NCBI GenBank assembly: GCA_011033025.1
Contig: WFMF01000043.1
Location: 744,001 to 808,000 of the forward strand
Source of the DNA: Beroe forskalii
Lineage: Eukaryota > Ctenophora > Nuda > Beroida > Beroidae
Reading direction: 5' to 3'
DNA length: 64,000 nucleotides
Shown here: one piece after another, positions 22,124-60,158 of the stretch
How positions within the stretch are numbered: the stretch's first letter is position 1
How the letters are laid out: each line of letters opens with the position of its first letter
Translations under genes and position numbers: made by a program
The notes under the pieces: model-generated
What the model saw: the letters and a program-made list of their open reading frames with translations, nothing else
Databases searched by the model: none
Told to the model about the DNA's origin: nothing

Positions 22124-23437
22124 TTACTTGATCTCACACTTCCTCATGGAGGGCGCCGTGACCCCCTTGCCATTGATCTTCCACTGCACGCCCTTGTACA
22201 TCGCATACCCATCCTCAGACACCAGGAAATCTGGCTGAATAGCTTCGAATATCTGGAGAGCATGGAAATGATAAAATATGCCACGTAACTGTGGAGGGTG
22301 ACTGATGATACTTCCGATTACTTTTCAAAGCCCTTTGTGGTACCGGGAGTCAAGCGGTTTTAATCAATCAATTATTGCATTTGGTAGTGCAATTTACAAC
22401 TAAAATGTTTGATTAAACTCCTACTTCCGAGTTCTGATTGATCAAACGTATTAAATCTAAATTAAAAAGGTTATTTTCATTTGACTGCCAAGGAATTTTG
22501 ATATTATCTTGATTTCATCATGAAATGAGGTATGAGATATTGCTGACCTTTTTCTTGGGGTTGAGCTGAGAGTCGGGAGTTCCAGGATACCCCTCTACTG
22601 TGACCACATCGCCTGGTTTGGAGTCAGGGGTGGGACCAGGATCTCACAGTTGTCCGGACTACTGGCACACATCACCATGCCGTACGAGAAGATACCTGCG
22701 TGTTGTCAGAAGTCGGAATTCAAGAATTTCTAGAAGTTCCAGATCTAGCAGTGATGGAAAGTTTGAAGTCACAGAGTTTGTGGTGTTGCCGAGTCACATA
22801 CTATTGTCAAGTCACAACAAACACTGGTTTCACGTCACAGCAAATACTGGTGTCAATTCACAACAAATACTGGTGTCAACTGTCACAACAAATACTGGTG
22901 TCAAGTCACAGCAAATACTGGTGTCAAGTCACAACAAATACTGGTGTCAAGTCACAGCAAATACTGGTGTCAAGTCACAACAAATACTGGTGTCAAGTAA
23001 CAGCAAATACTGGTGTCAAGTCACAGCAAATACTGGTGTCAAGTCACAGCAAATACTGGTGTCAAGTCACAACAAATACTGGTGTCAAGTAACAGCAAAT
23101 ACTGGTGTCAAGTCACAGCAAATACTGGTGTCAAGTCACAACAAATACTGGTGTCAAGTCACAGCAAATACTGGTGTCAAGTCACTAAAAATACTGGTGT
23201 CGAGAAGTCAGAATTCAAGAATAGCAACACGCATCTATGAAAGTAGTTGTGCTGTAAGAGCCATCACCTCTCATTTTGGCAGGTTTTAGGTTGCACATGA
23301 CGACACAGGGTCGCTGCTGCATTTCCTCCAGAGAGTAGTTCTTGACCAGACCACTGAGAATCTGCCGGGGTTCTGCCTCCCCGCAGTCTATCGTTTCAAC
23401 GTAGAGACCATCAGCCTCAGGGTGATTAGTGGCGGAC
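22124..23437 (-). CDS. AIMP1: AIMP1 / EMAP-II, exons 4-6 (C-terminal tRNA-binding domain)
   Basis: AIMP1 is a scaffold of the multi-aminoacyl-tRNA synthetase complex; its C-terminal EMAP-II domain is an OB-fold that binds tRNA. Exon 4 (23268-23437) encodes [20 protein letters not shown] and [10 protein letters not shown]. Exon 5 (22548-22695) encodes [18 protein letters not shown] and LNPKKK. Exon 6 (22124-22252) encodes [20 protein letters not shown], then [10 protein letters not shown], to a TAA. These follow the human protein almost motif for motif. Junctions are canonical: CCAG before exon 4, AGAG|GTGATG to CGCAG|GT, AAAAAG|GTCAGC to CTCCAG|ATA. Exon 5 is one base short: after EILVPP a run of four C (22627-22630 on the plus strand) needs a fifth to keep frame. 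Exons 1-3 lie at 59039-60158, across a ~35.6-kb intron. YARS C-terminal domain is the main alternative; KPAKMRG and IQPD favour AIMP1. Confidence 0.88.
22796..23203. repeat. 23-bp minisatellite in an AIMP1 intron
   Basis: About 17 head-to-tail copies of a 23-bp unit, AAATACTGGTGTCAAGTCAC plus ARC, with alternating A/G and some T-for-A variants. It lies wholly in the intron between exons 4 and 5 (22696-23267). Open frames through it only reflect the absence of stops in the unit. Confidence 0.9.
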
Positions 23438-24854
23438 CTGGAAGGGTGAGAGAGGTCAGGAAGAGGGATTGGGGATAACACATGTGTATGGTGGCTCAAA
23501 CCCGCCACCAGAAAAAAATGAAAATTTTTTTCAAATTTTAAAAAAAAATTTAAAAAAATATTTTTTTTAATTTTAAATTTTGTTTTAATACTCTAGTAGC
23601 TGGCCCAAGATGAGTATGCATATGCTCTTTTAGGCAGTTTCTCAACAGGATATGTTAGTTTGATGCCTAAGAAAGCACCCTGGGGTACTGCCGCATGTCG
23701 GAAGTGGTAGGATCACTCCGAAAATGACCACGCCCTTTTTTGCTTGTCGCGACCATGGGAAAATTTTTGAAACCCCATTCTTTCTCTAATATAGCCATGT
23801 TGGGTATCAAAATAGGGGTTTTCGAGGACGCTGAATCGATTCCATGCATTATTTAATGCCTCAGCTATACCGTTTTTGAGATATCTTCAAAAAACCATAT
23901 CTTCGATGGGCGTGTGTATGAAAAATGATTATGAAATGAAAAAAGATACTATTTTCCACCATGTGGTCAAGTAGATAATCAAAATAGGGCTTATCTTGGT
24001 CACTGAGTCGATTCCGGGTGTTACTGAAGTCCTCAGAAACTTGTTTGATACGAAAAAGTCAAAAATACACTTTTTCATGGTGTATGAAAGTATGAGAAAT
24101 TATGTTCTCCGACATTAAAAAGTCCAATGCATTCCATTACTACAGTTGTTGAATGTTGAATGTATCAAGATAGACATAACTGAGGCTACTAAGGTAATAG
24201 GCTTGCCAACCTCCTTGCTGAACCTGCCCGTGGAGCAGGCCAGGTGGCTCCAATGGAAGATGCTGAGAGACGACGTATGTAGCAAGGAGTTTCTCCTTTA
24301 CAGGGGAGATAGGCCACTCCAAGCAATCCAAGAAACTCCAGACAGCTTACCCCAGCTTTAGGTGATCTTCCAGCCCTCCGACAGAGCACTCTTCAACAGG
24401 TGATTGATAAACGAAGCGGGCACAAGACAGCCTTGGGATTGGAAAATCTACTTCTTGTAACCGCACTACCTCAAGAACCTTCACTCTTCAATCCTGTTTC
24501 AAAATTTCTAAAACATACCAGGCTGAGCTCAGGCTTAAAGTTTATATGATGCAGGATACATTCTGATACAGTAATACAGGTTACATGTTGACAGCAGCAT
24601 CACATGCCTAACAGAGATAGAGGAGCAGATGGACACAGGAACTCAGCTGCTTGATTTACAGGCAATCGGAACTTCCTTCTCAAGATAACAAGATCTCTTC
24701 AAAGGGTTAACCCATGTCCACAATGGACAGGAAACCCAGGAAACATAGCAGCCCTATCAGAAGCTGGAATCAACAGGCAGTTTCCAACGGCAGTGGTGAG
24801 TCACCACTGATACAATAGTGAAGGGAAGCACAGCAAAACCACTTTAACGCTACA

Positions 24855-24902
24855 GAGCTCTACTTACAGAGCTCTACTTACAGAGCTCTACGTACAGAGA
24901 TA
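24855..24902. repeat. Short tandem repeat ACTTACAGAGCTCT
   Basis: Three to four copies of a 14-15-bp unit containing ACAGAGCTCT in the core of the inverted-repeat element. Confidence 0.7.
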
Positions 24903-26111
24903 ACACTTCATGGTATTTTTTATTATTATTTGAGACGGTAGGCTAACTAAAGCCTCCGTAACGCCCCCAACCCCACGGATCTGGAGGAAATATATGCACT
25001 CTTCATGGTATTACTGGTATAGTATACTGGTAAAGTGTGCAGTTTGGTCGCATGATTCGTTTCTTTCATAGTTTCATCTCAAGACTCTTGAAAAATTGAT
25101 TGATTCTAATCAGTTTTATCCAACTTAGCAGTTGACTTACGAATAGGAGCAAAGTAAACACGAGGACTGTAGAGAGTACAAGCACACCGTTGTTCAGTCC
25201 CAGTCTTCAAGCAGAAATGAAGTAGACAGTCACTAGATATAGGACTCCTTACATTTGGGCTACAGCTAATCTAGCTTGAAGACAGATTAAAAACCAGGAT
25301 GATTAACCTGTAAAACCAGGAGAAAAAAAGATGTACAGTGTACACTGTACATTCTACTGCTGGCAACCTGGCTTTCACTCCTAAAGTGAGTTGTGGTCCT
25401 GCATCATTCCTGGGACAGTTTTCACCACCTCCGTTATCACTTGCAGCTGCAGCCCTTGAGTCTATTCCTCTACCCACCGTAATACTGGGCACCCACCTAC
25501 CCTTTGCTGCTTTTGCTCCAGCACTATCCCGCTTGCAGTCCTGCTTCTCTCACTGCCTCTTTCGTCCACTGCTTCTCTCCCCACCTACTCCTTCTTTTAC
25601 TTGGTTGTCAATTCTTCTTCTTGCATGTTCCATTTTTTTTCTTTTCGTCAGAGGAGGACAGCATCAGATGATCTCTTACTGATAGATCCCGTTCATTCAT
25701 CCTAGGAAGGACTTAAAACAAAATCATTCAGGCGTATTATTTCCCCCTTTGCGGCTTGAATTTCGTTTATCAGTGTTAATAATGTACTCTTGAGACTTGA
25801 CTCATTGTTAACTGATAACCCAGCTTTTTGCATCAGGCGTACAATAATTTGCCTTATGGTAGTTATTGGAGAACTTGATATTTTTATAACAGCTCCCAAC
25901 CCCCACCATCTGTCCCGAAATAGTGAAGATAGACAGCAAGCAATAAGGAGCACAGACAAGCATGGAAGAGCGCTTCAGTCAGCAGTCAGGAGGAGAAACG
26001 CTCCAGTCTAGTGTCTACCATCTACAGTCTGAAGTTCACAGGATACTCTCTTTCATCTAAGAAGCGTTATCTTTGCTTTCAGAGGATACCTACCCAGAAA
26101 CACTGTTGTGC

Positions 26112-26202
26112 AATACCACAGAAATAACCAATCAGGAAGTCTATCAATATTGTTAGACTTCCTAATATCATAGACTTCCTGATAGGTCATTCCTGTGGTA
26201 TT
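26112..26202. repeat. Imperfect hairpin
   Basis: AATACCACAGAAATAACCAA followed by TCAGGAAGTCTA (26112-26143) is complementary to 26171-26202 (TAGACTTCCTGATAGG ... CCTGTGGTATT), with a 27-bp loop. The loop contains a further TAGACTTCCT copy. Confidence 0.7.
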
Positions 26203-27075
26203 ACTCGAGTGTTTCTTTTCCTGGTAGTAGATATGGATGACCTGCATTGTCTCCAGATCTACGTCCCAGTACCCTGCAGTTCTCCTCAGTTACTTGCTCT
26301 CTCCTAATCATCTTGATTTGCCACTATCTGCCTAGTGAGTTGCTATGTACCACTCACCATGCCTCTGGTTCTGTTGACTATTCGTTTTTCTCTATTGAGG
26401 TGGACTACCCAAAATTTTTGGAACAAGCGAGTCATTTTCATTCAATAGCTTATCAGCATTCAATATCAAATCATGGAGTACCAAATTACTAAGGTCAAAG
26501 GATCAAGTCTCACTTTCTTTGGTCTCAGAGGCAATGAAAAAGTGTATTTTTGACTTTTTCGTATCAAATAAGTTTCTGAGGACTTCAGTAACACCTGGAA
26601 TCGACTCAGTGACCAAGATAAGCCCTATTTTGATTATCTAGTTGACCACATGGTGGAAAATAGTATCTTTTTTCATTTCATAATCATTTTTCATACGCGC
26701 ACCCATCGAAGATATGGTTTTTTGAAGATATGGTTTTTTGAGGCATTACATAATGCATGGAATCGATTCAGCGTCCTCGAAAACCCCTATTTTGATACCC
26801 AACATGGCTATATTAGAGAAAAAATGGGGTTTCAAAAATTTTCCCACGGTCGCGACAAGCAAAAAAGGGCGTGGTCATTTTCGGAGTGATCCTACCACTT
26901 CCGACATGCGGCAGTACCCCAGGGTGCTTTCTTAGGCATCAAACTAACATATCCTGTTGAGAAACTGCCTAAAAGAGCATATGCATACTCATCTTGGGCC
27001 AGCTACTAGAGTATAAAAAAAATTTTTAAATTTTTTAAAAAAATTTTGAAAAAAAAATTAAAAAATTTAATAACT

Positions 27076-28302
27076 AAAAATCATGGCTCAAACTCGTGGC
27101 GGGCTCAAACCCGCCACGAAAACTGAAACTGAAAATGAAAATCGTTTTTTATTCAAATCACGTACGAACTTTTTGTGCGCCGCGCAAAAATTTTTAAAAT
27201 TAATTTGAAAAACGAAATCGCTTCATCTTGAAACATCATGAAAAACGCGTTTGGCGTTCACGCGTTACGTTAAGTTCATAATGTTGTTAGCAAAATGATA
27301 TGAGCAGCAGCCAAATTCAAGTCCCAACGGCAAAGCTCTCGACCAGTCCATCAACCTTTCCAAGTCGACGCGATGATACCCCTTTCATTCCCACTGGGCC
27401 AGAGCTGGGCTATCTGTAATCCTTCTGTGTCATTCTTCTCAATGGGCGGGGCTGTTGCAGTCACCTTATTTCTCAATTTGCATCACAGGACAGAGCCGCC
27501 TGTTGTTACCCATTGAGACGACGCCTGCCATTCTCCTCAATTATGTAGAATTGAATAGAATGACAGGCGATCAGCAGGCGGCCCAGCCCATTGACTCATT
27601 GAATAGAATGACAGGGGATCCATCCTCTGAGAATGATGTCATGCTACACCAGCCATTGAGGGGAACTACAGGCGGCTCCACCATTTGGAGAATGTGATGA
27701 AGCCCCCGCCCATTGAGAAGAATAAGAGGACAATCAAACTGTTTAGGAGTTTAGTACCTTCAATGGATAGGGCCATCAGTCATTGTTATCAATGGGCGGG
27801 GATGCCTGTCATCCTTCTCAATGGGTGGGCTGCCTGTCATTGATTTACTAAAAATCCTAAGCAGGCGGATTCGTCTCTTATTCTTCTCAATAGGTTGGGC
27901 CGCTTCACATTCCTTCAAATGGGTGGGGCCGCCTGTTATTCCCTCAATAATGGGTAGATCCCTCGTTATTCTATTCAATGGGCTGGGGTGCCTGCTGATT
28001 GCCTGTCATTCTACAAGTACACAATTGAGTAGAAAGGCTGATGGACTGGTCGAGAACTTTACTGTTGGGACGTGAATTTGGCTGCTGCTCATATCATTTT
28101 GCTTACTTATACATTATGAACTTAACGTAACGCGCGAACGCCAAACGCGTTTTTCATGATGTTTCAAGATGAAGAGATTTCGTTTTTCAAATTAATTTTA
28201 AAAATTTTTGCGCGGCGCACAATAAGTTCCTACGTGATTTGAATAAAAAACGATTTTCATTTTCAGTTTTAGTTTTCGTGGCGGGTTTGAGCCATGATTT
28301 TT
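27076..28302. mobile_element. Nested 1.2-kb inverted-repeat element
   Basis: The ends AAAAATCATGGCTCAAAC and GTTTGAGCCATGATTTTT begin inverted arms of about 290 bp, matching between 27083-27375 and 28015-28300 (landmarks TTTTTGCGCGGCGCAC and GATGGACTGGTCGAGA). Between them are irregular repeats of CAATGGGCGGGGCTGCCTGT in both orientations. It uses the same GGCTCAAAC terminus as the host element and sits in that element's A/T-rich right arm. No target duplication could be settled because the flanks are A/T runs. Confidence 0.7.
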
Positions 28303-28509
28303 AATTTAAAAATTTTTTTTAATTTTTTTTTCAATTTGAAAAAAAAATCTAAAAAAATTAAAAAAAAAATTTAAAAAAAATTTAAAATTAAAAAAATTAT
28401 TTTTTTCAATTTTTTTTCAATTTTTTTTCAATTTTTTATTTAATTTTTTTTTAATTTGAAAAAATTTTTCATTTTTTCTGGTGCTGGGTTTGAGCCACCA
28501 TACATGTGT

Positions 28510-29644
28510 GTTATGTGTACACATGGATTGATTGATAAGAACGCGTAAAATACTGTACTTACGATAGAAATTCTATGAAAAGTAAATTGCGCGCACGTTC
28601 ACCCTAAAGTCCGCGTCTTTATCAATCTCTTCATCGATCGAGGGATGCCTGTGCACGCATATGGGCAATCCGAAAAAATAATCAGAGGGCTGAGGCCACA
28701 GGGAAAGGCAGTGGGGTGGGACAGGGTAAGAGGTGAAAGTGAATAAGTAGTCAATAGTTATGGGTAAAAGTGAGGGTCAATGGTTAAAGTTAAATAAAAG
28801 TGAGGTGTAAAGGGCAAAAGTGGGGGTCAATGCTTAAAAGGGGTAAAAGTGAGGGTCGATGGTTAAAGTTAAATAAAAATGGGGTATAAGGGGTAAAAGT
28901 GGGAGAACACTTCCTTGGAAAATCCCATTTCACGTTGATGAGCAGTATTGAGGTTGGTAATGGATGACCACCATCCAATTATAATGATAACAAAGGGCTT
29001 AACATAGACGTTCAATGAATAACTGCGAGAGACTATTCACGTGACACGTTGCGTTATTAAACGAACAAAGGGATTAATAATTAGTTTAATTAACGAAGTG
29101 ATTGCAATAAGCGATCGAGTGGGTTACACAAAAACCAGGATTTGGCTTTGCAGTATAAACCATCCAAGGTTTGCAATTTCGTGTTTGTGTGCAGAGTTTT
29201 CGTTTTAAAATAACGGTTTGAGTGACTTTGTCGTCCTATCTATTTAATTCCAACTAATTCTAGTACAAAGCTTAGTAGTAGTAGTAGGAAATTAGTACTA
29301 TTCCAAATCAGTTCTATTTTTGAAACAATTTAATAGCCAAAAGAACTTTTGAACCGATGGCGATTGTATGGGAAATGGGAAATTCTCCAAAATAGCAATT
29401 TGTATACTTGTAAACTTGTAGTTGCTGTTTTTATGGTGGTACGTTGTAGTTTTCTCTACGATTTTAATTGATCAATCAGGGCACAGATTATCTTAATTTC
29501 ATAAGTATTTTTTGATTCACTGATTTATATATATTCATGGCGTATTGCACAACAACGCTGTGTCCTGCTAATTCCAGCAATGTACGTCACTTAGAACCAT
29601 TTTGTCTGCTAATGTAATGTAACACCAGTTCTCTCCACAGGGTC
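28510..29644. other. Intergenic sequence upstream of the P450
   Basis: A repeat of about 90 bp (GGGTAAAAGTGAGGGTCAATG type) lies at 28755-28905. A minus-strand open stretch at 28573-28689 is preceded by a good acceptor (see findings). CTCTCCACAG immediately before the P450 start could be a splice acceptor for an upstream non-coding exon. Confidence 0.4.
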
Positions 29645-31150
29645 ATGTATTTATCACTGGGTGTCGCACTGATCTTTCCAGTTGCAAGCTATCTGATAAT
29701 CAACTTCCTTCTTTTCCTGCAAAGGCGGAGTTTCCGACACATTCCATCCCTTCCCATACCCTGGAGCTTCCAATGGTTCAAAGGCCACGAGCCCGAGTTT
29801 TCTAGAAGAGTACAGGCGGACAGAAACAAGCACAAGGGTATAGTGATGGGCGAAATGGTACCCGAAGGCAACTCCACAATCAACATCCTCTTCCTGTACA
29901 ACCAAGGCCTGATTCTGGTGACTGATGTGCCCATCATTGCAAAGCTCATGACGGATAGGAAGGTCTACACGAAGAGACCGCTCTTCGGGATCTGGGATTC
30001 CATGGACGGGGTCCGCATTGGTGGGAAATACGGACTCATTGGAGACATCGGAAGCGAGGTGTGGGCAGCCAAGCGACGGGTTGAGGACAAAGCCTTCAGT
30101 AAAGGAGCCCTCAAGGAGACGATGGAGGGAATGATTAGGATAAGCCATAGTTTCATTGATGCCATGCAAAGGAAGGCTGATGCAGGTGAAACTTTTGATA
30201 TGAACGGTCCCCTAACGCTGTCAGCAATGCAGACAATCGCAAAGTGTGGCTTTGAACTGACCGATGAGGTTATAAAGGAACAAACTGATTTGATTCTAGA
30301 TGCTTTAAACGCTGCTAACGTGTGCATGGGACTTAACATGAAGGACCCAGTAGGCTTCAGGATGCCTTGGAAATATAAGCACGAGAAGGCGGAGATGAGG
30401 AAGTATGTGGTGCCAGTACGGGAGTTCATAAAGAGGACATTGACTGCAGACATGGAGAGAGTTAGGAACAAGAACACTATTGTGGCACACCTCATCCGAG
30501 CACACGATGTCTCGGATCAGCTAACTTTGGATGACATAGTGGATGAGTGGGTGATTTTCTTTGCAGCCGGAATGGAAACCACTGCAACCACCATGGCAGG
30601 AGTGGTTTGGCACCTTGTCCGGCATCCTGATGTCTATCAGAAGGTACAGGACGAAGTTGATAGGGTCTACGGTGACAAAGAGGACCTGGAATTTGACGAT
30701 CTGAACCAGTTAGTTTACCTGGAAATGGTTATTAAAGAAAGCCTTAGATTGAAAGGACCAGCACCTGTTGTTGCCAAGCAAATGGCTGATGACATGAGTG
30801 TCACAGTTAACGATTGGTACTTCCCAAAGGATTCTAAATTCACCATCCTGGTTCACAAGATACACAGAGATCCTTTGTACTGGGATGATCCCCTCAAATT
30901 TAACCCAGAAAGATTCGCTCCTGGAAAGCAAATAACCCCCTTTTCTTACATGCCCTTCTCTGCTGGTCAAAGAAACTGTGTTGGTAGACATTTTGCCATG
31001 GTAGAAATGAAAGTATTACTATCACAGCTGGTTAGAAACTTTGTTGTTACCAATGGCAGACCTAGCGAAACTGACCTGATTTTGACTGGGGATTTTACTC
31101 AATATCCAATGGGAGGTATCTATGTGAACATTCGCAATAGGAACGTATGA
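29645..31150 (+). CDS. Cytochrome P450, CYP46-like, intronless
   Basis: A 501-residue microsomal-type P450 monooxygenase with every family hallmark. These are an N-terminal membrane anchor and proline hinge (RHIPSLPIPWSF), the I-helix oxygen-activation motif FFAAGMETTATTM near residue 307, the ExxR motif KESLRL at about 365-368, FNPERFAPGK, and the heme loop FSAGQRNCVGRHFA with the axial cysteine near 445. The overall pattern is closest to CYP46A1 (cholesterol 24-hydroxylase)/clan 4-type enzymes, so a sterol or other lipid substrate is plausible but not shown. The gene lies on the opposite strand within the giant AIMP1 intron. CTCTCCACAG just before the ATG may be a splice acceptor. The coding region has no intron, stop or shift. 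A broken relative lies at 2245-3180. Redox partner would be cytochrome P450 reductase in the ER. Confidence 0.93.
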   Translation: MYLSLGVALIFPVASYLIINFLLFLQRRSFRHIPSLPIPWSFQWFKGHEPEFSRRVQADRNKHKGIVMGEMVPEGNSTINILFLYNQGLILVTDVPIIAKLMTDRKVYTKRPLFGIWDSMDGVRIGGKYGLIGDIGSEVWAAKRRVEDKAFSKGALKETMEGMIRISHSFIDAMQRKADAGETFDMNGPLTLSAMQTIAKCGFELTDEVIKEQTDLILDALNAANVCMGLNMKDPVGFRMPWKYKHEKAEMRKYVVPVREFIKRTLTADMERVRNKNTIVAHLIRAHDVSDQLTLDDIVDEWVIFFAAGMETTATTMAGVVWHLVRHPDVYQKVQDEVDRVYGDKEDLEFDDLNQLVYLEMVIKESLRLKGPAPVVAKQMADDMSVTVNDWYFPKDSKFTILVHKIHRDPLYWDDPLKFNPERFAPGKQITPFSYMPFSAGQRNCVGRHFAMVEMKVLLSQLVRNFVVTNGRPSETDLILTGDFTQYPMGGIYVNIRNRNV

Positions 31151-31176
31151 ATGCGTTATTGGCAATGACTTCTATT

Positions 31177-31182
31177 ATTAAA
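31177..31182 (+). terminator. Possible polyadenylation signal of the P450
   Basis: ATTAAA, a common variant signal, begins 27 bp after the P450 stop codon. Confidence 0.45.
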
Positions 31183-33040
31183 GTACATTTAAGGTAACAG
31201 AATATAATCTACTATTAATCGAAAGAGGCAGTTCAAGGTAGGAGCCTCCACCCTCCCAGAAAATCTGACATACTGGGAGTTGAAAACCCGCGATTTTTTT
31301 GCAGGGTGGTAGAAAAAAGGTGTCTTCGTATTGCTACATTCTTCTTTTTGCGTAAAGGCTTTAGATTTTCCGTAATTAATGCTCAAAGTTGGACAAAGGG
31401 TCGCGAAAAACAAGATCGAGTTATAGGTTTGATTCACCAGTTGCGCGCGTGGCTATGGATACATGCGCTAGCGCGCAAAACTGCACGTGCATTTTAACGA
31501 ATCTACCATTTCGTTATTGTGTATTTTGGAAACGTTTCCATTGTTGAAATTCATAATTAACGTTCCCAATGGAATTTTCGAGTTTGGTAAAAAGAGTACG
31601 ACTGCAGGAGACAATCAATATTTTAGGGGAGGAGAAAAGGTAAGAGTTGAACATTATGTTCCATAGTGAACATCAGCAATAATTCATTCATGTGAAGATA
31701 TTAATTGTAGTTTCGATGGTTTGCTGCGATAAATCGACGAATGAAAAATTCATATTTTTGAAGCAAGAAGTGGGTTAAAAACAGATAAAATTGCGAACAA
31801 TTTTGATTTCAATGAGCTTGGATTCAAATTTGTTGCCCATCTATTCTCCTAATCTTAACTTTAGATTAAAAAAGATTTTTCTTGAGTTCTTCTTAATTAC
31901 CAACTGTTTGCTCGAGGTTAATATGCAATCGTAATTTTTTTTCATTTATTTTCAAAGCCTATGTGAATATTTCGCAATTTCGTTACGTTGCATTCCCACC
32001 CCCAGTAACAAAAATTGCATCAATGACTTACTTAGTGTTAGATATCACATTTGACACTTCCAAACTTTAAAAAACGCAATTGATCATGTTTCAGTTTCAT
32101 ACGTTTTACAAACATTTGTTTTTGTCAGTAATTTCTATAATTCAATATTTACGAAATCTGCGTTGTGATCCGTGAATTTTGAAAATACTGTGTATGTCCA
32201 TATTTTAAGAAACCAGTTCCTGGTAAGGGCAATTATATGTTACCATTGTGGTACTCTGTAGCCAGCATTGAAATGGTCGGGTGTCCTACATGACTTAGAA
32301 GGCCCAACGGGCCTTCTAGTATGATATAATTTATATATATAATATATTCTGTTACCTTATCAAATGTCTTAATACTTTAATAACAGTAACTTCAAATTCT
32401 GTTTGTCTCCTTTTTTCGAAAATATGAATTATTCATTTGAACTATTGTTCTCTTTATTTTCTGCCAATTGCATTTCAATTCGCAATGAAGGGATTTCCTG
32501 CGAAGAAGGGTCATCTGGGACCTGGGTGAATACTGAATAATTAGATATATTCGTGCTGCACAATTCGCATCTCAAAATAACCTTGAGTGGATAGTTCATT
32601 GATTGTGCTAGTGCTCATTCTATATAATATGTAAGAATGAGTTGAGAGTCCAGATTATCAAACTGTGGCCCAGTGATCAGTGGAATATGTTTGGCTGGGA
32701 ATCTAGGTACTGTAGAAAGTGGCTGCATTATTTTTGGTAAAAACTGGCTGGTTTTTGCAAGCCACGGCTCAATGTGGCAGAAATTTATCCAGTGATTACC
32801 GGTTTCTGCTGGCAAACCGATAGAAGCAACAGCGTTTTTCGATTCATAATGAAGACCCTCTTACGTTTTTAGTATGGTCATCATTAATAATTGAAAAATT
32901 CCGACCAAAGTCAAATATAGACCATGTCGTGGTTACTTTGGGAATGAAATGGCTAGTTTGAAAATGCAGCAGCTTGTATCCAGAATGTAGTGGCTGGGGC
33001 CGCTAGATTGGGAATACCCGCAATAAATCTCTTGCTTCTC
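31183..33040. other. No gene recognised
   Basis: AT-rich. GGCCCAACGGGCCTTCTAG at 32302-32320 matches the edge of the repeat family at 36960-37385 and 44040-44605. The stretch 32690-32990 (GACCAAAGTCAAATATAGACC, TGGCTGGTTT) resembles the nested element at 57735-58296. Confidence 0.45.
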
Positions 33041-40593: not shown

Positions 40594-40596
40594 ATG

Positions 40597-41547: not shown

Positions 41548-41580
41548 ATGAATATTCCCCTGAAGTGTACCCTCCTTATC
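41548..41580 (+). pseudogene. Detached 5' coding fragment of the second secreted-protein gene
   Basis: The fragment encodes MNIPLKCTLLI, equivalent to MNFPLKFTLLI of the paralogue at 40597. It is cut off from the rest of its gene by the transposon at 41581-42920. The reading resumes at 42921 with LILVIGLASC. Confidence 0.85.
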
Positions 41581-44013: not shown

Positions 44014-44039
44014 GTGCAGCCCCAAGTGAGCTGTGAATT

Positions 44040-49942: not shown

Positions 49943-51859
49943 AAAAACCAAAAAGGATTTGGTTGTGGTGGTCCGCGGCGGTTTTAAGGCGTTCTTCACA
50001 ATAAAACCCATGATATGTCCAATAGAACGCGATGGTTAAAACTGCTGCAACGTCACTCCAAAATGTACAGCTTTCACGAAACTATTATGCTTCGAAAAAG
50101 TGCCGTTGCGGCAGTTTTAACCGTCGAGTTCTATTCCACATCATGGGTTTTACCGTGAAAAACGCCTTAAAACCGCCGCGGACCACCACAACCAAATCCT
50201 TTTTGGTTTTTGGAAAAATATCATCCTTTTTCTGTGCTCAGATACTGAAATTTGGCGTCAAATCGCGCGTTACCTAGCATTACTGATGACGTCACAATTA
50301 CGTCATAAAATTAGATGAGCTATCTGAGACCCATTCATTAGCACACTTGGGACTATGACCGACAACCTATCCAAAGATGAAGTTCTGGGATGGTCCCGTT
50401 TTCTCTAACTCATCCTTACCGTTTTTGCTATTTTTTGCGATTTTTTCGTGTCAAAGTGTTTCAAACAATTGCAAATATCTCAATGATGCCGGAGGGCCCG
50501 GAACTTTTCGACCCCATTTTTGGAAAGTACATTAAATTTCCTTCCTGCATTATCATAAGCATTTTTACCTATCTCAAAAGCTTCATGCCGAAAAATTGCG
50601 CTGAAAAACGCCAATTTTCGGGAAATCAAAATATGAAATTTACGACTTTGTGACGTCATAATGACGTCATCAAAATGACGTAAAATGCTTTTCAAGGGCA
50701 ATTTTTGCAAGTTCTATTTTTCTACTTTCCAACGCTGGGTCGATGAGCTCTGTATCTTTTACGGTTCTCGAGATATGGCTTTTTAAAGAGGGTACACTTT
50801 TCGCCTAAAAATGTTCTCTATTGGTATGTTATTGTCAAAACCCTTTTCAACAAGAACAGCCTCAATTTTGGCGATTTCAAGTTGTAATAACTCAGCCATT
50901 TTTGAATGAATTGATCTCAAATTTGAAACTCCGAGCGCGCGCACAGCGAAGGCGCGAAAACTCAATTTTCAATCGATTTGATCGTCGGGAAGGTTCCGTA
51001 AAAAAATTTGAAATTTGGCGAATCCACAAAAACATATATATGGGGGCTGGCAAGCGCAGCGATGCGTACGCATCGCGTGTGCGATTTCAGTGCGAATAAG
51101 GCCCATATTCACCAAATTTGCGTTAAGTGGGAACTTTAAGGACGAATTAAAGTAGCACATTAAAGTATCAGTTTTAAAGTTGCCACTTAAACAAAAGTCG
51201 TATTCGCCAACACGATGAAATCTCGGACTTAATTTTTCAGTGCGACCTCCCACTTTTTTAAAGTTAAAGTGGCAGCTCGTAAGTTAAAGGTTGACGTTGA
51301 GGTACCTTACAAAAAGCCGGTTTAAGGACGAGCTAAAGTGCCACCTGATCCCAATTTTATTTGGTGAATACCAATTTTATAATTTTTAAAGGTCGTACTT
51401 TAAGTTAAAGTAACAAGGATGACCTCACACTTAAACACAAATTTGGTGAATACGAAAACGGAAGCTGCCACTTAACTTCACTTTATGGACGAGCTCACCC
51501 TTACAAGGCCGTTTAAGTATGAACTTTTCGATTGGTGAATACGGGCCTAAGTTGTCATAACTTGGGCATCTTTTATCCAATCGATCTGAAATTTTGACAG
51601 TTGCACCTTTGACCCTCAAACATGCGACGTATCGATTTTGGTGGAAATCCAATAACGGGAAATTGCCCAAATTTCTTCGTGAAATGTGGGGAAATACATG
51701 AGATTTCTCTCGTTAGAATCGCCGTCCAATGCTCGCCCTCAGACCCTTCGGGTCCTCGGGCTCGCAGCTCGGGCCTTCGGCCCTCACACTGTTAGGTTCG
51801 CCGTCCAATGCTCGCCCTCGGGCTCACAAACCGCCGCGGGGGGCTTGCCAGCCCCCTGA
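49943..51859. repeat. Dispersed element, copy 2, with a MITE inserted
   Basis: Matches 45371-46783 from the CCAAAAACCAAAAAGGATTT hairpin to GCTTGCCAGCCCCCTG, with point differences throughout. It is longer than copy 1 mainly because of the MITE at 51100-51547, and by some local duplication near 51740-51810. Confidence 0.8.
51100..51547. mobile_element. 448-bp MITE with TAA target duplication
   Basis: Begins GGCCCATATTCACCAAA and ends TTGGTGAATACGGGCC, flanked by TAA at 51097-51099 and 51548-51550. The paralogous sequence at 46528-46538 (GCGAATAAGTTGTC) is the uninterrupted site with one TAA. A TWA duplication is typical of PIF/Harbinger elements. The interior is made of inverted AAGTTAAAGTGCCA-like repeats and has no transposase. 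Confidence 0.85.
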
Positions 51860-51934
51860 TCTTACTCGATACTAAAACCCTTCATTAAACATTCTTCATT
51901 TTAATCAAGTCATATTTCCATAAGGTAAAACAAA

Positions 51935-52141: not shown

Positions 52142-53129
52142 CCTAATGAGTTCATCCAGTCTTGGTGTGATGGGAAGAGGGAGCGGTCCGGCCATTATTT
52201 GGCGTCAACTTAAAGGCAGTGCAAATCATGAACTTGCAATGTGTAGTATAAATTTTGTTTGCCGAAAATAATGAAATATTTAATTTACTGAGAATATGTG
52301 CGTTTTATTGACTACCGTGACGACGAAAATTGTTAGACGGAGACCAGGAAATTCAAAACATTGCCTGTACAGTGTACATGAAAGAAGTCATAAAATATAA
52401 ATTATCAATGGTTTTACAGCTATAATATGTGCTTTGGAGGCGTAAGACGCAGACTAGGCTTTCCATTATCGGTAACAAATTTTTTCCCTCTCCAATTGCG
52501 TTTTTGTTTTACAAAAAGGCAAATGAGAGGGTTAGCAGAGATCGTGGTTTGGAGGATTTTGGGAGAATTTGTGTATACTACCTTTATCCGTACTGTGGGG
52601 GAGAAATCTCTAAAAATTGGGGAGAAATCTCTAAATATGGGGGAGAAATTTCCACAAATGGCGTAAGAATTCAAGCAACTGCTCCTTCATAATATCAGTC
52701 AAGTCGGGGTATTTTGGAGTTTTTGGTGTAGTGGCATCGAGTGAAACTGTAAACTTCTGTTAGCTGACAGGAATTTGGGTTCGATGCTCAGGTCATTCTA
52801 ACCTTGAAATTGATTTTTTTTATAAAATCTCGTCAGATCGATTTCATCAAATCTTTTCACGCTGAAATAATGAATTCAAAATATTTACAGTATCATTTTT
52901 CACGGTTTTTATTGGAGTTTGAAACATTTAGCTTTTTTCACCTTGAGCAACTGACAATGAATTAATGATTTGAGTGCGACGATGGATCATGATGATTGGT
53001 CCAAGGAATTGAGTAGGATTTATCCCCGTAATTATATCCAAATCTGCAATCTTTTTCATTCCGGTACCTGCTCATCATTTCTATTGTCATGTTTATTGGC
53101 CTCTTCAATACATGCAAAAGGAGTCGGGA
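52142..53129. other. No gene recognised; contains hAT empty-site relative
   Basis: The stretch 52487-52560 (CCTCTCCAATTGCG ... GAGGGTTAGCAGAGATCGTGG) is related to the two flanks of the hAT-like element at 9150-11704 joined together. GGGGAGAAATCTCTAAA occurs three times near 52598-52655. Confidence 0.5.
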
Positions 53130-53420
53130 TTCAACAATAAGGTGCGACGGCTTGATGTCAAATTGTCAACAGCAAAGAAAATGTAATGCGTAACAAAAAT
53201 GAACCCCGTGGTTATGAAACTTGGAATGGGGCGCAACAAAACGAATCTTAAAAGAGTTGTACGAATTGTGGTGATTGCGCGCGCGTAGAATTTGCCACGT
53301 GCATCCGGACCGATCAATCGCCCACGTGCGTGCGCGCTTTAAATCAAGCACATAGGAGAGGGAAATTAAGCGCCTGCATACGGGAACAACGGACAACATG
53401 AAAAGCACCGGCAGGCGCAA
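53130..53420. repeat. Dispersed repeat edge shared with 13740-14046
   Basis: GGGAAATTAAGCGCCTGCAT at 53362-53381, with CACGTG sites and GCGCGC tracts upstream, parallels the end of 13381-14046. Confidence 0.5.
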
Positions 53421-53424
53421 TTCT

Positions 53425-53770
53425 TGTTTATCTAGATAAACCGATAATTATTTCGGTTTTATCTAGATAAAATCTATCAGTTTTTAAAAACTTTTTTGCC
53501 ACTGTCAATCTGGTTACTTTCGCTAAATATACGTCAGTCTGATATCATGGTGATTGTTGATACACCCGACTGTTGTTATTGATAACACTATGTCCAAAAA
53601 TTGTCAATGATACGTAGTAGTGGTGCTTCCGATTGGTATCTGAGTTCATTCAGGTTGATATCATTGATTTGTCAGTGTTAGACTGATGCAATTTATCCGT
53701 CAGAACGGTATTAGGAATACTATACAGCAGACTAGGTCAGAGATGCGCCCGAAAGGTATCAATCATGCAT
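53425..53770. repeat. TTATCTAGATAAACCGATAA palindromic motif and flank
   Basis: TTTATCTAGATAAACCGATA lies at 53428 and TTTTATCTAGATAAAA at 53458. The same two motifs recur at 55996-56040. They may be ends of one ~2.6-kb element, but the arms are not cleanly inverted. Confidence 0.45.
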
Positions 53771-54025
53771 CAGATTGGTGTCAGTGATACGGCAGACTGG
53801 TGTCAGTGATACGGCAGACTGGTGTCAGTGAAACGGCAGACTGATGTCAGTGATACGGCAGACTGATGTCAGTGATACGGCAGACTGGTGTCAGTGATAC
53901 GGCAGACTGATGTCAGTGATACGGCAGACTGGTGTCAGTGATACGGCAGACTGGTGTCAGTGATACGGCAGACTGGTGTCAGTGAAACGTCAGACTGGTG
54001 TCAGTGATACTGCAGACTGGTTTCA
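53770..54025. repeat. 22-bp minisatellite
   Basis: Eleven to twelve copies of GTGATACGGCAGACTGGTGTCA with few substitutions. Degenerate copies reach back to about 53600 and forward to about 54200, and again near 55860-55940. Confidence 0.9.
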
Positions 54026-54979
54026 GTCATCTATAGCAGATTGTTAGTGTCTGTAATACGTCTGGCCAATGTTAAATATCTGATGTGTGTCTGTGACACG
54101 ACAGAATAGTGTCACTGGTGCCAGATTTGTGTCGGTATCAGTTATCCATTAAACAAGTGTCAGTGATACATCAGGATAGTTTCAACTACTTATACATCAA
54201 ATAGATGTCAAGGTTTACAAGGTTTAAATGTTAATAAAAACCAACTGAAGTTGGTTGTTATATTTTACAGAGTCACTAAACAACAAACATCCTTTATTAT
54301 ATTAATTCAAAATATTTCATGTCCCGCATATTTTCGCAGTTGATATCATGATCTCAAACTCTAAAAAAGTAAGTGTAAATTCACTATCAACTCACATTGT
54401 TTCCAAATCAAGTTCGCTCAAACTGTATATAAAAGGCTTTATGAGATTATATTCAGTCTATCCATAATAGTCAGTACACAATTGTCACTTCCCAATTGAT
54501 TCAGCTCTTGCTTTCAAATTGAAATGATTGATTATAGGAAGTTTTCTCATGATATTTACCAGATGATCTGTTGGATCTATTCAGATGCCCACCAGATCAG
54601 TTGTATCATCATGAATAACACACTTTCCAGTTAAATCTCAAGTTATGCAAAATAATTAAGTGATTTCTCAATTAGCTCACTTCAGTTGTTTGGTTGAATA
54701 ATGACTTCTCAGCGCAATGTTTCGTTCACCTGTTTTGTCTGCATTAGTCTTCTCACAGGGTTATAGGATGATAAGTTATCATAGGGCACTTCTATGCTGA
54801 GGTGTTACCGATTTTTGGGACATAGGCTGTGAATAAGTGAGGCCCATTTATGCAGGATACTCCATCATAGTTGATTTGGCAGTGAAATCGAGCTGATGTA
54901 AATGTGTGAGTGTAAGGTATGATAATTATTGAATCAGCGCATAGGTGACAGACTGTGACACGCCATTTTTACCTTCATT
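54026..54979. other. No gene recognised
   Basis: Degenerate minisatellite remnants, then AT-rich sequence with no supported feature. Confidence 0.4.
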
Positions 54980-55357
54980 TTAGTTTTGTGATATGCCATT
55001 TGCTATGTAAATAGTGAGTGTGTTTGCTCGTTTCTCTTTTTCCTTTAACTCGTTCATATATTTGCGTCTGGTTTCAATGACATGACATAGAAATGTGCAC
55101 ATGCAGTTGATTATATATTCACGTCTTTGACTTAGTGAGATATCCTCGTCACTAGTGGCTGTGTGATGGTCGTTGAATGCAGTATGATTGTCCAGGTTGG
55201 TGGAGACATATGGTGATAGGAGAGTGTGAAAATTAGCTTTGAGTTGAGATTGATCAATAGGCGTGTCAGATTGAGGTCCTGGAGCTTTATTCAGTCTCGT
55301 GATGTTTATTGCGCAGGCTACCATACAGGTCACAGTCATTGATTGCGTGAAGTTCAT
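54980..55357 (-). CDS. Hypothetical protein, possible secreted helix-rich product
   Basis: The product is 125 residues from an ATG at 55357. The N-terminus (MNFTQSMTVTCMVACAINIT) is mildly hydrophobic and could be a weak signal peptide. The C-terminal third, including CMCTFLCHVIETRRKYMNEL and KEKEKRAN, looks helical and charged. There are several NxT/S sites. I recognise no family. It lies between two blocks of minisatellite-like repeats in the AIMP1 intron, so it may belong to a transposable element or be chance. Confidence 0.25.
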   Translation of the reverse strand: MNFTQSMTVTCMVACAINITRLNKAPGPQSDTPIDQSQLKANFHTLLSPYVSTNLDNHTAFNDHHTATSDEDISLSQRREYIINCMCTFLCHVIETRRKYMNELKEKEKRANTLTIYIANGISQN

Positions 55358-56248
55358 CTTCTATCACGTTAACACCCATTGATGTGTTACACCATGAACA
55401 AATACGCGCTTCTCTCGGTATTTTATTGTATCTTCCACATTCAATTTCCAGATCGTGAGAACTAATTCTGAATTTGGTTGTGTTATATCTTCGCGAAAAT
55501 CCCTTTGATATATCTAAATATGGTTCTCTTGCAAATTTTTTCTTGCACGCGTGATAGAATGATAGTTTAGACGATTCGGATTTTCATATTCCCAGCAATT
55601 AGTGAAGTGTTCAGTTAGTGACTTTACTATTGTCTGTACGCGGAATTTGCAACTTGGTAGCGGTTGAATTCTTGATTGACTTTTTGGCGTATTTTTGGTT
55701 TGAACTGTGGATTTTTCAACACACGCGACGCAGTAACGTGATCTTGGTGATAAATATCATCCAGTTTTAGAAGAGGCTCAATGTTTTTGTACCAGGGGAG
55801 ATTTAATGCTTTTTGTTCACACAGGGCAGCTTTGATAAATGTGCTCTTGGATGTCTGTGGTATGTCAGACTGGTGTTGGTGATTGGTAAGAAAGGTACCA
55901 GTGACATGCTTGACTGGTGGCAGTGATCCTTCAGACTGGTGAAATTTGAAACCAGTCCAATTTTACAAGCACTTTTCAACGCCAGCTATTTTGCTATTTT
56001 ATCTAGATAAAAATAATTTTTATCTAGATAAACCGATAATTTATTTTGACGAATTATCGGAGATAATTATCGGTTTAGATTATCGGACTGGAAAGCCTAA
56101 CGCAGACAATATGAAAATATTTTACAGACTAACAAGAGCTGGTCTCTATGTAAAATCTATAAATGTCGACAGCGCATTGCTCAATCATCAATGGCATATA
56201 ATTAATTACCTATACGCTATTACGCTAAACACAAACAACTGAAAAATT
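55358..56248. other. No gene recognised
   Basis: AT-rich. It contains degenerate TCAGACTGGTG units near 55865-55940 and the TCTAGATAAACCGATAAT motif region at 55996-56090. Confidence 0.4.
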
Positions 56249-56749
56249 GGGCATAGATCCGTTTGCCACTTTGTCCAGGCGCCAGTCTAATGCAGGTCTA
56301 GCGCCGGTTTAATGCAGGTCTAACGCCAGTCTAGTGCAGGTCTAATGCCGGTTTGGCGCCGGTTTTGTGCAGGTTTAGCGCCGGTTTAGCGCGGTGCCAG
56401 CGCCAGTCTAATGCAGGTCCTGTGCCACTCTAATGCAGGTCTAGCGCCGGTTTGGTGCAGGTCCAGCGCCAGGTACAGCGCTGGTGCAATGCAGGTCTAG
56501 CGCCGGTTTAATGCAGGTCTTGTGCCAGTCTAGTGCCACTCTAATGCAGGTCTAGCGCCGGTTTGGTGCAGGTCCAGCGCTGGTTTAGCGCGGGTGCAGC
56601 GCTGGTCCAATGCACCTCGGATGCTATCTCAATATTACTAATGCATTTTTTTACAGATTTGGCGCCGATTGAATTATGCAGGTTTGACGACGTTTCATGC
56701 ATGTTTGGCGCTGTTTTGATGCAGTTGCAATGCCATTCCAATGCAGGTT

Positions 56750-57312
56750 AGTTACCACTGTTAGCCATGGTAACGTCCGTTAGGGACCACCGATAACCAT
56801 GGTAACGTCCGTTAGCTCCCATCGGTAACCATAGTAACATACGTTACTACGTTAGTGACTACCTTTTACCATGATAACCCACGTTAGTTACCATCGGTAA
56901 CCATGGTAACCCATCTAAGTTACCACCGGTAACCATGGTAACGTCCGTTAGCTCCCATCGGTAACCATAGTAACATACGTTACTACGTTAGTGACCAGTG
57001 ACCACCGTTTACCATGATAACCCACGTTAGTTACCATCGGTAACCATGGTAACCCACCTAAGTTACCACCGGTAACCATGGTAACGTACGTTAGCAACCA
57101 TCGGTAACTATGGTAACCCACGTTAGTTACCAGGTCGGTAACCATGGTAACGTACGTTAGTAACCACCGGCAACCATGGTAACGTTCGTCAGTTATGAGT
57201 TACTACAGATAACCATGGTTATGTACGTAAGTTACCATCGGTAACCATGGTAACGTATGTTAGTTACCACCGGTAACAATGATGAAGTACGTTAGTTACC
57301 ACCGGTAACCAT
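56750..57312. repeat. Palindrome-rich array (GGTAACCATGGTAAC)
   Basis: About 15 units of roughly 35 bp, GTTACCACCGGTAACCATGG plus TAACGTACGTTA-type spacer. Each holds one or two overlapping palindromes (GTTACCATGGTAAC, TAACGTACGTTA). It forms the centre of the 56249-58444 element. Confidence 0.85.
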
Positions 57313-57734
57313 TTAAATCTATTATTATTATGAAGAGTCATGGGCATAGAATTGAACATGCTAAACCTGCATGAAACCAGCGCCAAACCCGCATTGGAAT
57401 GGCGTTGCACCTGCATTAAACAGCGCCAAACATTCATGAAAAGACGTCAAACCTGCATAATTTAATCGGCGCCAAAATCTGTATGAAATGCATAAGTAAT
57501 ATTGAGATAGCATCCGAGGTGCATTGGACCAGCGCTGCACCCGCGCTAAACCAGCGCTGGACTTGCACCAAACCGGCGCTAGACCTGCATTAGAGTGGCA
57601 CAAGACCTGCATTAAACCGGCGCTAGACCTGCATTGCACCAGCGCTGTACCCGCGCTCAACCGGCGCTGGACCTGCACCAAACCGGCGCTAGACCTGCAT
57701 TAGAGTGGCACAGGACCTGCATTAGACTGGCGCT

Positions 57735-58296
57735 CCCAGTGGAATAATTTTGAAAAGTGGCTGGGAATCTGTAACCAAGAGTAAAAAGAGGCTTTTTAGC
57801 TCGAGGTGAACGCCAGCTGGTTTTGTCATGTTTTCACTGAAATTACCGAAATTTAAAAAAATAAGTTTGATTGCTACCTAGAGAAACAATAGAAAAGTGC
57901 AACAATGTTTTTCATTGAATATTGTTATTATTTTAAAATGTTTATGATGACCACTTAAATAGTTTTCACTAAGAAAGTTTGACCAAAGTCAAACACAAGG
58001 AAATATCGCGGCTGGTTTGGGAATGCGGTGGCTGGTTTGGGAATGCGGTGGCTGGTTTGGGAATGTGATAGCTGGTTTGGGAATGCGGTGGGAATGCAGC
58101 TGCTGGATTCGGATTAGGCACCGGGAATGATCAATTATGGTATTCAACTCTATAAATTTCATAATTTTGAGTCCATTAATTACAGAATGTGTCCAGAATT
58201 AAGCTTATTTCGTTCGAATTTAAGCTTTTTTTCGATTTCTTATTTGGAAATTTGACTGGGAATTTAATTCCTATATTCCCCATATTATTCCACTGG
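57735..58296. mobile_element. Nested 562-bp element in the right arm
   Basis: Ends CCCAGTGGAATAATTTT and ATTATTCCACTGG are flanked by the direct repeat ACTGGCGCT (57726-57734; 58297-58305). It interrupts the GCGCC repeat arm. A 20-bp tandem (GCTGGTTTGGGAATGCGGTG) occurs three to four times at 58012-58090. The CAGTGG terminus resembles hAT elements. Related sequence lies at 32690-32990. Confidence 0.7.
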
Positions 58297-58444
58297 ACTG
58301 GCGCTGGCACCGCGCTAAACCGGCGCTAAACCTGCACAAAACCGGCATTAGACCTGCACTAGACTGGCATACGACCTGCATTAAACCGGCGCTAGACCTG
58401 CATTAGACTGGCGCCTGGACAAAGTGGCAAACGGATCTATGCCC

Positions 58445-59038
58445 GAAAAATTTAACATGAAAAATTTAAAATTACTTATTTCAGAACCCATTCGATCTGA
58501 TGACCATCTAGTCATCTACTCATGCTTTTCTGATTGTCAATCGATGGCGCTTCTCTTCTGGGAGAACTGCAGGACACCGATGGCAACTGGGTTGATTTCA
58601 CACAAGATTTACATGTTTTTCGACAAAATGGAGGGGCGATGGGCCCGAATGGACGAGGAGATGACGGAAAAACTCGAAATAGCATACGTTTTTCGGCCAA
58701 AACTTGGCCATTTTTTGAGATATTGACTTCAAATTTTTATGGTAACTCAGGGGACCATTATCTATCGATCAAACCCCTCAGATCCCGCCCAAGTCGCTTT
58801 TGAAAAAATGAGCCCATTTTGGGCGCATTTTTGGCGCTGGTACCACAGCAGCGCCAGCGGGACTGGGGGTACCAAACCCGGCCAAAAAATTGGCCCACGG
58901 GGTGTACCTTTTGGGTCAACCATTATCTCATAACCGTGGTTTCCAAAAAAATTGGCCTTAACCCCCCTTAATGGGCAACTACTAATCTAGTCTCAGACGG
59001 GATTCCCCTCAAAACTGATAATAAGTAAATTCAATTAC
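58445..59038. other. No gene recognised
   Basis: Moderately GC-rich sequence with several open frames but no recognisable domain. GGCGCTGGTACCACAGCAGCG near 58831 is a local inverted feature. Confidence 0.4.
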
Positions 59039-60158
59039 CTGATAAATCCAACTCTCATATCAAGTCGAGATACGTCCACATTTTCTGCTGCTTTAACAAC
59101 TGGTGCAGGTCCTTTCCCTTGCTTCTTGACATTTTCTTTCTGAAAATAATGCACTTTTATTCAATGATAAGAGAAAGTTAAATTACTTTGGTAGGTATGA
59201 TATGCTACAATTTGCTAATAACCATGCATACCTATATTATATGAATTTTAATTGGCAGATATACCCTCAAAAGACAACTATAAACACTAAAAAGCATGAA
59301 AGAGGAAAATTATGTAATCATACCTTTTTCTTGTTGGCTTGTTGAACATTTGCTTGATTTGAAACTTTCTCAGTAGTTGCTTGAGATTGAACATTTGCTT
59401 CAATGGCCGGAATTCTGATGGGACTAGGAAGAGGATTAATTCTTTGGGCAACTTGACCCCTTCCATTCATCTCTTCAGCATCAATTAACTGTAACTTAAG
59501 ATTCCCTACTTGCTGCTTCAACTGCTCATTTTCTGTCTGAATAATAGGAAAGGATTTGGTTATACAAGAATATATCAAACATGAGAAACACTATAACTGT
59601 GCTTCTCAACACAAACCCGGATTCCGAATCAAACTTCTAAATTCATATTTGGAGTGAATTTAAAATTATGAAGCCTTTTTTTGGAAGAGATGAAAGTGAA
59701 AATTTTCACTTATGAAAAATAGTATTATTGGGTCTCAAACTGGTGACCAGCACATGAAAAGTCAGTATGATAAGCAGGTCAAAAGAACCATTCAGTGGAA
59801 AGGGTTCACTTCATTCATTTTTCATAAATAATGAATGTTGTGCATTACATACATGCAGATTGCTCAATTATCAAAGTGCTCGAAAAACACACAGAGATTT
59901 CCTGCTTGTACATGAACATATACATTTAGTTGAAAGCTCACAATTTTGTACACCTTTGTCCAGGCCTCTGCCAATTGAGGGATCTGTACAAATATGAGTT
60001 ATTAAACAGTCCAACTGCTCATTTTCTGTCTGCAGCTGTCTTTTATATGCATCTGTATTTTTGACAAGAGGTCCATTACTTTTTAATTTCATAATATGAC
60101 CCTTTAACAGCTCAATAGCAGCATCAATTTCTTTTGCTTTTGCAATCCTTGAAGCCAT
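59039..60158 (-). CDS. AIMP1: AIMP1 / EMAP-II, exons 1-3 (coiled coil, linker, start of OB-fold)
   Basis: Exon 1 starts at the ATG at 60158 (MASRIAKAKEIDAAIELLKG) and is a leucine/lysine-rich coiled coil, the part of AIMP1 that docks into the synthetase complex. Exon 2 (59324-59536) continues it with QTENEQLKQQVGNLKLQL, then a low-complexity linker ending NKKK at AAG|GTATGA. Exon 3 (59039-59139) follows TTTTCAG and encodes KENVKKQGKGPAPVV and VDVSRLDMRVGFI, the first strand of the EMAP-II fold, ending at CAG|GTAATT in phase 2. Phase and sequence fit exon 4 at 23437. The 3' edge of exon 1 is unresolved: CAGACAGAAAATGAGCAGTT occurs in both exon 1 (60015-60035) and at the start of exon 2, and no good phase-0 donor stands between them. 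The weak CTT|GTCAAA near 60066 is one option. Confidence 0.88.

Follow-up and report, generated by a model that had tools for sequence, protein, structure and literature searches.

A single AIMP1 gene, interrupted by an intron of 35.6 kb that holds a cytochrome P450 gene in antisense orientation, is the well-supported reading of the 64,000 nucleotides of Beroe forskalii DNA analysed here (the window, part of contig WFMF01000043.1 of assembly GCA_011033025.1), based on the phase of the exon 3/4 junction, the gap-free homology across it and a search of the 216-Mb assembly that turned up no further 3' half of AIMP1. It is very probable that the third intron of this ctenophore gene was lengthened by repeated transposon insertion and is spliced in cis, that the genes nested in it are independent antisense units, and that the defects in the sequence mostly stem from assembly or polishing. 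The exon anatomy, the splice phase, the repeat content, two clean insertions differing between contigs and the selection acting on the P450, on which this explanation builds, were observed directly.

The six AIMP1 exons all lie on the minus strand, and both their anatomy and the alignment to human AIMP1 agree with the initial annotation, which took exons 1-3 (59039-60158) and exons 4-6 (22124-23437) as consecutive parts of one gene. Exon 1 (60030-60158) runs from the start codon to CTGCAG and encodes a coiled-coil N-terminus that aligns with human AIMP1, exon 2 (59324-59536) follows, and exon 3 (59039-59139) ends in phase 2; exon 4 (23268-23437) encodes the start of the EMAPII OB-fold, with a tRNA_bind match, and is followed by exon 5 (22548-22695) and by exon 6 (22124-22252), which contains the stop codon. 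When exons 1-5 were joined up to a frameshift in exon 5 (227 aa), human AIMP1 (4r3z) was the first match (E 1.1e-42), with an alignment that begins at query residue 7, thus including the N-terminal coiled-coil, and that is gap-free across the exon 3/4 junction. The EMAPII-type tRNA-binding OB-fold was recognised by PF01588 (E 3.9e-27) and by matches to EMAPII structures. Only two regions of the assembly matched the EMAPII exons, the AIMP1 locus and a YARS1-like gene, and the N-terminal coiled-coil sets AIMP1 apart from YARS1. A DNA search of the assembly turned up exons 4-6 just once, while exons 1-3 are present twice, in the window contig and in a contig of 11,695 bp (C101).

Intron 3 (23438-59038, minus strand) measured 35,601 bp, in line with the claim that the two halves lie about 35.6 kb apart on one strand, compared to 133-572 bp for the 17 other introns measured. 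Its ends (CAG/GTAATT...TTCCAG/G) confirmed that the exon 3 donor and the exon 4 acceptor match, with GT and AG in place and phase 2 on both sides, and the exon 3 donor is identical in C101. We infer that the whole intron would be removed by the ordinary spliceosome.

The initial annotation had taken both halves of the gene as intact, and thereby missed two defects. In exon 5 as assembled, the reading frame shifts by one base near 22620-22636 and is therefore not continuous (CDS length 890, i.e., 3n+2): the spliced ORF stops at codon 238, and the conserved C-terminus is read in a different frame. Moreover, exon 1 ends at 60030 without a GT after it, and the donor of intron 1 is not GT in either contig. 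Both observations would be expected if this AIMP1 copy were decaying, with a protein cut before its conserved C-terminus and a giant intron reflecting relaxed constraint. We regard such decay as unlikely, although it is the most probable of the alternatives, since the assembly yielded no AIMP1 besides this one, conservation relative to human AIMP1 is still good past the frameshift (E 5.8e-16) and the joined exons contain no further frameshift or stop. In addition, only one of the 443 coding bases of exons 1-3 differs between the contigs, a near-identity that could also arise from polishing of both contigs with RNA reads. The most likely sources of the exon 5 frameshift are an error in the assembly and a private null allele.

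The odd donor of intron 1 was most likely produced by polishing with RNA reads. In the window, the first 18 bases of this intron equal the start of exon 2, and within a patch near its 5' end (60015-60023, minus strand) five of nine bases differ from C101, all five being those of the exon 2 start. We considered that intron 1 might derive from a transposon and be flanked by a target duplication of 21 bp (repeat at 60029), but C101 has only the first 6 bases of the repeat, and since the repeat differs between contigs that are otherwise 98% identical, this origin was rejected. Among 18 introns checked in AIMP1 (5, with intron 1 of the window and C101 counted once), the YARS1-like gene (3), CCT6 (7) and CCT2 (3), four have sequence of the neighbouring exon in place of a splice dinucleotide, which suggests that the assembly was polished with RNA reads. 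The junctions in this set were placed so as to keep the protein continuous relative to human CCT and YARS1, and the set comprises introns with both ends resolved within the stretches analysed, leaving out, e.g., the first and last introns of CCT2. Alternatively, the missing GT and AG could be real, with many introns bounded by short direct exon repeats and either removed non-canonically or maintained by conversion from spliced cDNA, a recent conversion then accounting for the difference between the two AIMP1 contigs; we consider this improbable. If polishing is responsible, splice sites elsewhere in this assembly should be treated cautiously, and each edit marks a junction that was transcribed.

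Repeats make up much of intron 3, with ten segments counted that cover about 19,899 of 35,601 bp; the initial annotation had claimed at least eight transposon copies. An element with inverted ends of approximately 0.5 kb (95% alike) occupies 23569-27032 and has relatives on C1080 at 90-94%. It is followed by three repeat families, at 27016-28505 (27 other places of at least about 0.8 kb among the matches listed, 84-93% alike), at 31204-32335 (8 other places among the matches listed, 88-94% alike) and, with an internal 42-bp tandem array, at 41592-42920 (more than 30 other places among the matches listed, 77-97% alike). A broken non-LTR retrotransposon lies on the minus strand at 33269-35538, with RVT_1 matches in two ORFs in different frames. 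Two elements have both terminal inverted repeats and a target duplication as judged against C101: a 2,196-bp transposon (56249-58444) with at least 60 bp of perfect inverted repeat, an 8-bp target duplication and an empty site in C101, and a 3,645-bp transposon (52455-56099) with the 11-bp inverted repeat TAGGCTTTCCA and an 8-bp target duplication, which is missing from all three units of C101. A stretch of about 1.9 kb (49939-51858, ends approximate) is absent from C101 units 1 and 2; it was dismissed as a third clean insertion, as it has no target duplication and parts of it (51858-51548 and 51100-50824) recur in unit 3. An Rfam search of the window gave no match at the gathering threshold.

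C101 carries AIMP1 exons 1-3 followed by an intron that differs from that of the window, and most likely represents the other haplotype. It also has a TTAA-flanked (piggyBac-like) insertion upstream of the gene, where the window has the empty site. Ending inside intron 3, C101 cannot serve as a full alternative AIMP1 and is silent on the far end of the intron. Its first 1,000 and last approximately 1,260 bases had no window match at E 1e-20, leaving room for a diverged duplicate. A search of the assembly for a second copy of 24600-33200 returned only repeats and a P450 paralogue (C402) and no allelic contig, while a search with 35500-45400 missed the window itself and is uninformative about allelic copies. 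Taken together with the repeat content, the two contigs suggest that the intron grew through successive transposon insertions.

A misjoin that brought the AIMP1 halves together, or inflated the intron, would be in keeping with the local assembly errors seen here, i.e., the replaced splice dinucleotides, the exon 5 frameshift and the apparently unpurged C101. However, the halves of the only AIMP1 found stand in the correct order and on the same strand in a window with zero Ns, and C101 independently has the same repeat pieces past exon 3. Nor does the intron contain a long, near-identical internal duplication of the kind that a falsely doubled stretch would leave; among the non-tandem repeat pairs listed, the longest three are 86, 95 and 97% alike. 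We therefore find a misjoin improbable and retain the reading of a genuine, transposon-lengthened intron.

As proposed, the intron holds an intact P450 gene on the strand opposite AIMP1, a single-exon ORF of 501 aa (29645-31150, plus strand; PF00067, E 2.2e-72) whose coding sequence lies wholly inside 23438-59038. The best PDB match of this CYP46A1-like protein was CYP46A1 (171 bits), and its PFSAGQRNC aligns with PFSLGHRSC of CYP46A1. We take this stretch to be the heme-binding region, which is intact. Compared to the C402 paralogue, there are no gaps over 501 codons, differences at the three codon positions number 57, 35 and 154, and dN/dS is 0.15-0.18; the coding sequence is under purifying selection. 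With a protein identity of 82%, the two are too different to be alleles. The six closest other P450 matches in the Beroe genome are likewise single ORFs (513-548 aa).

The claim of two secreted cysteine-rich genes held in part. Both ORFs were found on the plus strand and look secreted, ORF 1 (40594-40881) having no Pfam match and an AG six bases before its ATG. Its paralogue, ORF 2 (42905-43213), begins within the high-copy repeat at 41592-42920 and is probably 5'-truncated. The P450 and at least one cysteine-rich gene are probably independent antisense transcription units that entered, or were trapped in, the AIMP1 intron.

Ctenophores employ spliced-leader trans-splicing, and trans-spliced leaders are common in Hormiphora californensis (PMC8527503). 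A search of the Beroe genome gave 32 spliced-leader-like matches, each with 3 mismatches, compared to 0 for the reversed control; none was found within the window. An AG stands four bases before the P450 ATG, and the 5' end of the P450 mRNA could be matured there, plausibly by spliced-leader trans-splicing. For AIMP1 itself, this mode of splicing in ctenophores (PMC8527503) and the leader-like sequences make it conceivable that the halves are separate, leader-capped transcripts or are joined by trans-splicing rather than in cis across 35.6 kb, but this is highly improbable, as exon 4 has no in-frame start near its beginning (the first Met comes at roughly codon 40) and its phase fits the exon 3 donor.

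The initial annotation implied that a gene within an intron is rare, whereas in Hormiphora californensis 1654 host genes are published as containing 2357 nested intronic genes, 1109 of them with transposable elements flanking at least one side (PMC8527503). Since nested genes are common in comb jellies, the AIMP1/P450 locus is a well-documented example and not a new kind. What appears to be new is C101, most likely the other haplotype, with the same exons 1-3 and a different intron; a search of a set of open-access papers found none on AIMP1 with a nested gene and intron, nor on AIMP1 with ctenophores. Two contigs, probably two haplotypes, with different insertions beside the same exon make visible how a giant, gene-carrying intron grows, and they offer a way to test whether the expression of a housekeeping gene responds to a large change in intron length or to an antisense P450.

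Human AIMP1/p43 (PDB 4r3z) shares the helical N-terminus and the EMAPII OB-fold with the ctenophore protein and aligned with it over nearly full length in two pieces, the difference being the exon 5 frameshift of the latter as assembled. Among solved structures, CYP46A1 (cholesterol 24-hydroxylase; PDB 7lrl and 2q9f) is the closest to the nested P450 by sequence. Elsewhere, intron retention, exonization and cryptic polyadenylation of a host gene can result from the genes nested in it and from intronic elements (PMC3192792). The closest likeness is to the nested genes of Hormiphora californensis, which also lie wholly within one host intron (PMC8527503), although the top 0.5% of introns by length were excluded from that survey, in which an intron as long as AIMP1 intron 3 might thus go uncounted. 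In contrast to Hormiphora, a second contig is available for part of the Beroe intron, and setting the two contigs side by side reveals insertions that are present in only one of them.

The AIMP1 gene is encoded on the minus strand by six exons (exon 1, 60030-60158; exon 2, 59324-59536; exon 3, 59039-59139; exon 4, 23268-23437; exon 5, 22548-22695; exon 6, 22124-22252), and the initial annotation, which had described a gene split by a 35.6-kb intron, was right in its main reading: the best match of the translated exons 1-5 (to the frameshift) was human AIMP1 (E 1.1e-42), and this alignment is gap-free at the exon 3/4 junction. The exon anatomy then proposed also holds, although a frameshift in exon 5 and the non-GT donor of intron 1 had been overlooked. 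The coding sequence (890 bases) meets a stop at codon 238, in exon 5, and conserved sequence continues in a different frame, the part 3' of the frameshift matching AIMP1 too (E 5.8e-16). Elsewhere in the 216-Mb assembly, the tRNA-binding domain had a single further match, on contig C233, which we read as a putative YARS1 judged by eye from its exons, and a DNA search with 22001-24600 identified no second copy of AIMP1 exons 4-6, only repeats. Intron 3 (23438-59038) measures 35,601 bp and has the ends GTAATT and TTCCAG, while the remaining 17 introns placed in the AIMP1, YARS1-like, CCT6 and CCT2 genes range from 133 to 572 bp. Repeat sequence starts approximately 44 bp from exon 4, and ten repeat segments of the intron total 19,899 bp, on the evidence that they have copies elsewhere, show homology to reverse transcriptase or are lacking in C101, a second contig with AIMP1 exons 1-3; repeat copy numbers are lower bounds, as only the best candidates were scored.

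The copy of exons 1-3 on C101 (11,695 bp) is 98% identical, and, save for one insertion, this contig runs colinearly with the stretch of the window between 61840 and 58445; its first 1,000 and last approximately 1,260 bases gave no match in the window at E 1e-20. Since a high heterozygosity of about 3.2% has been published for Hormiphora (PMC8527503), the simplest reading is that C101 represents the second haplotype; it may instead be a duplication. A 2,196-bp element in the window, with perfect inverted ends of at least 60 bp and an 8-bp target duplication, corresponds to an empty site in C101, and a second window element, of 3,645 bp and likewise with an 8-bp duplication, is missing from all three C101 units of a tandem array. 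This array (C101 6408-10440) lies in the AIMP1 intron and has a unit of approximately 1,350 bp; two full copies are 96% alike, and a partial third follows for approximately 740 bp at 94-95% before diverging. Thus, with insertions and array unlike in the two contigs, the length and content of the AIMP1 intron adjoining exon 3 differ between C101 and the window contig (C503). The stretch 49939-51858 (approximately 1.9 kb) has no target duplication and is missing from C101 units 1 and 2; parts of it occur in unit 3, and it was therefore rejected as a clean insertion. Pieces related to the tandem unit are also found in the window, split there by transposons. Located 5' of exon 1, a TTAA-flanked C101 element of approximately 2 kb (2079-4112) with inverted ends CCCATTAAGGAC is piggyBac-like; the window is empty there (60754-60770). 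Directly upstream of AIMP1, the window carries a retrotransposon, seen as an ORF of 412 aa (61590-62828, minus) that matches RNase H and zf-RVT.

The P450 gene reported as intact inside the AIMP1 intron on the opposite strand is indeed a single ORF of 501 aa (29645-31150, plus; PF00067, E 2.2e-72), with CYP46A1 as the nearest solved relative. Compared to its paralogue on contig C402, it shows 82% identity across 501 codons, gap-free, with dN 0.095-0.101, dS 0.55-0.65 and dN/dS 0.15-0.18. Within the 4.5 kb compared, DNA likeness between the two loci is limited to approximately 1.54 kb about the coding sequence plus one 36-bp upstream match. Apart from the nested gene itself, the six closest genome matches lie on C402, C648, C1 (three) and C603, each a single ORF of 513-548 aa, and many weaker ones are partial or contain stops. 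Another P450 fragment (2199-3246, minus) lies approximately 19 kb past the AIMP1 3' end. Two overlapping ORFs of 661 and 572 aa in different frames (5135-8696, minus) have an LDL-receptor class A match and a sub-threshold scavenger-receptor match. Two secreted cysteine-rich genes had also been proposed within the intron; the ORF at 40594-40881 was recovered, whereas the second starts within a repeat and is probably truncated. CAG stands shortly 5' of the ATG in the P450, its C402 copy and the ORF at 40594-40881 alike, suggesting possible trans-splice or 5'-UTR acceptors. The leader motif published for Hormiphora (PMC8527503) had 32 matches in the assembly, with 3 mismatches each, and the reversed control had none.

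GT or AG is missing in 4/18 introns placed, namely AIMP1 intron 1 (affected at 60015-60030), introns a and c of CCT6 (L053) and intron b of the YARS1-like gene (L001). In AIMP1 intron 1, ACAGAA follows CTGCAG in both contigs, and the intron start equals the exon 2 start over 18 bases in the window and six in C101. Within 60015-60023, five of nine bases differ between window and C101, all five window variants equaling exon 2, and the rest of the 493-bp intron holds 6 differences. At the three non-GT donors the intron matches the following exon over 18 (6 in C101), 6 and 6 bases, and at the single non-AG acceptor the last 4 bases are those of the previous exon. In contrast, the 14 canonical introns have 0-3 bases in common with the next exon, except CCT6 intron f with 6, itself starting with GT; at their other end they match the previous exon by 0-6 bases, and the 4-base acceptor match is therefore weak alone. 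Most simply, the assembly was probably polished with RNA reads mapped unspliced, in which case the edits themselves would show that the AIMP1 exon 1/2 junction is transcribed and spliced. The canonical sites of intron 3 are neutral in this respect, and AIMP1 splicing over 35.6 kb as well as P450 expression are predictions from sequence. On another contig (C558), chaperonin exons occur twice, near 175 kb and 215 kb, inverted and approximately 40 kb apart.

COX1 had a single match in the assembly, on a 13,339-bp contig with every ORF of at least 80 aa on the same strand, and its frame yields residues at positions we take to be conserved under genetic code 4, not code 5 (AGA = Arg). Two long unnamed ORFs follow nad5, which was read by eye. 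Two unidentified ORFs after ND5 are described for Beroe forskalii, and code 4 is thought to be used by ctenophores (PMC6991124). Together with the leader-motif matches, these mitochondrial features mark the host as a ctenophore, perhaps a beroid.

A survey of nested intronic genes in one ctenophore, omitting the longest 0.5% of introns, reports 2357 such genes in 1654 hosts, 1109 of them flanked on one or both sides by transposable elements (PMC8527503), and hence the AIMP1/P450 arrangement is of an already known kind. This locus contributes a giant intron with different content in two contigs of the same assembly, owing to clean insertions of transposons.
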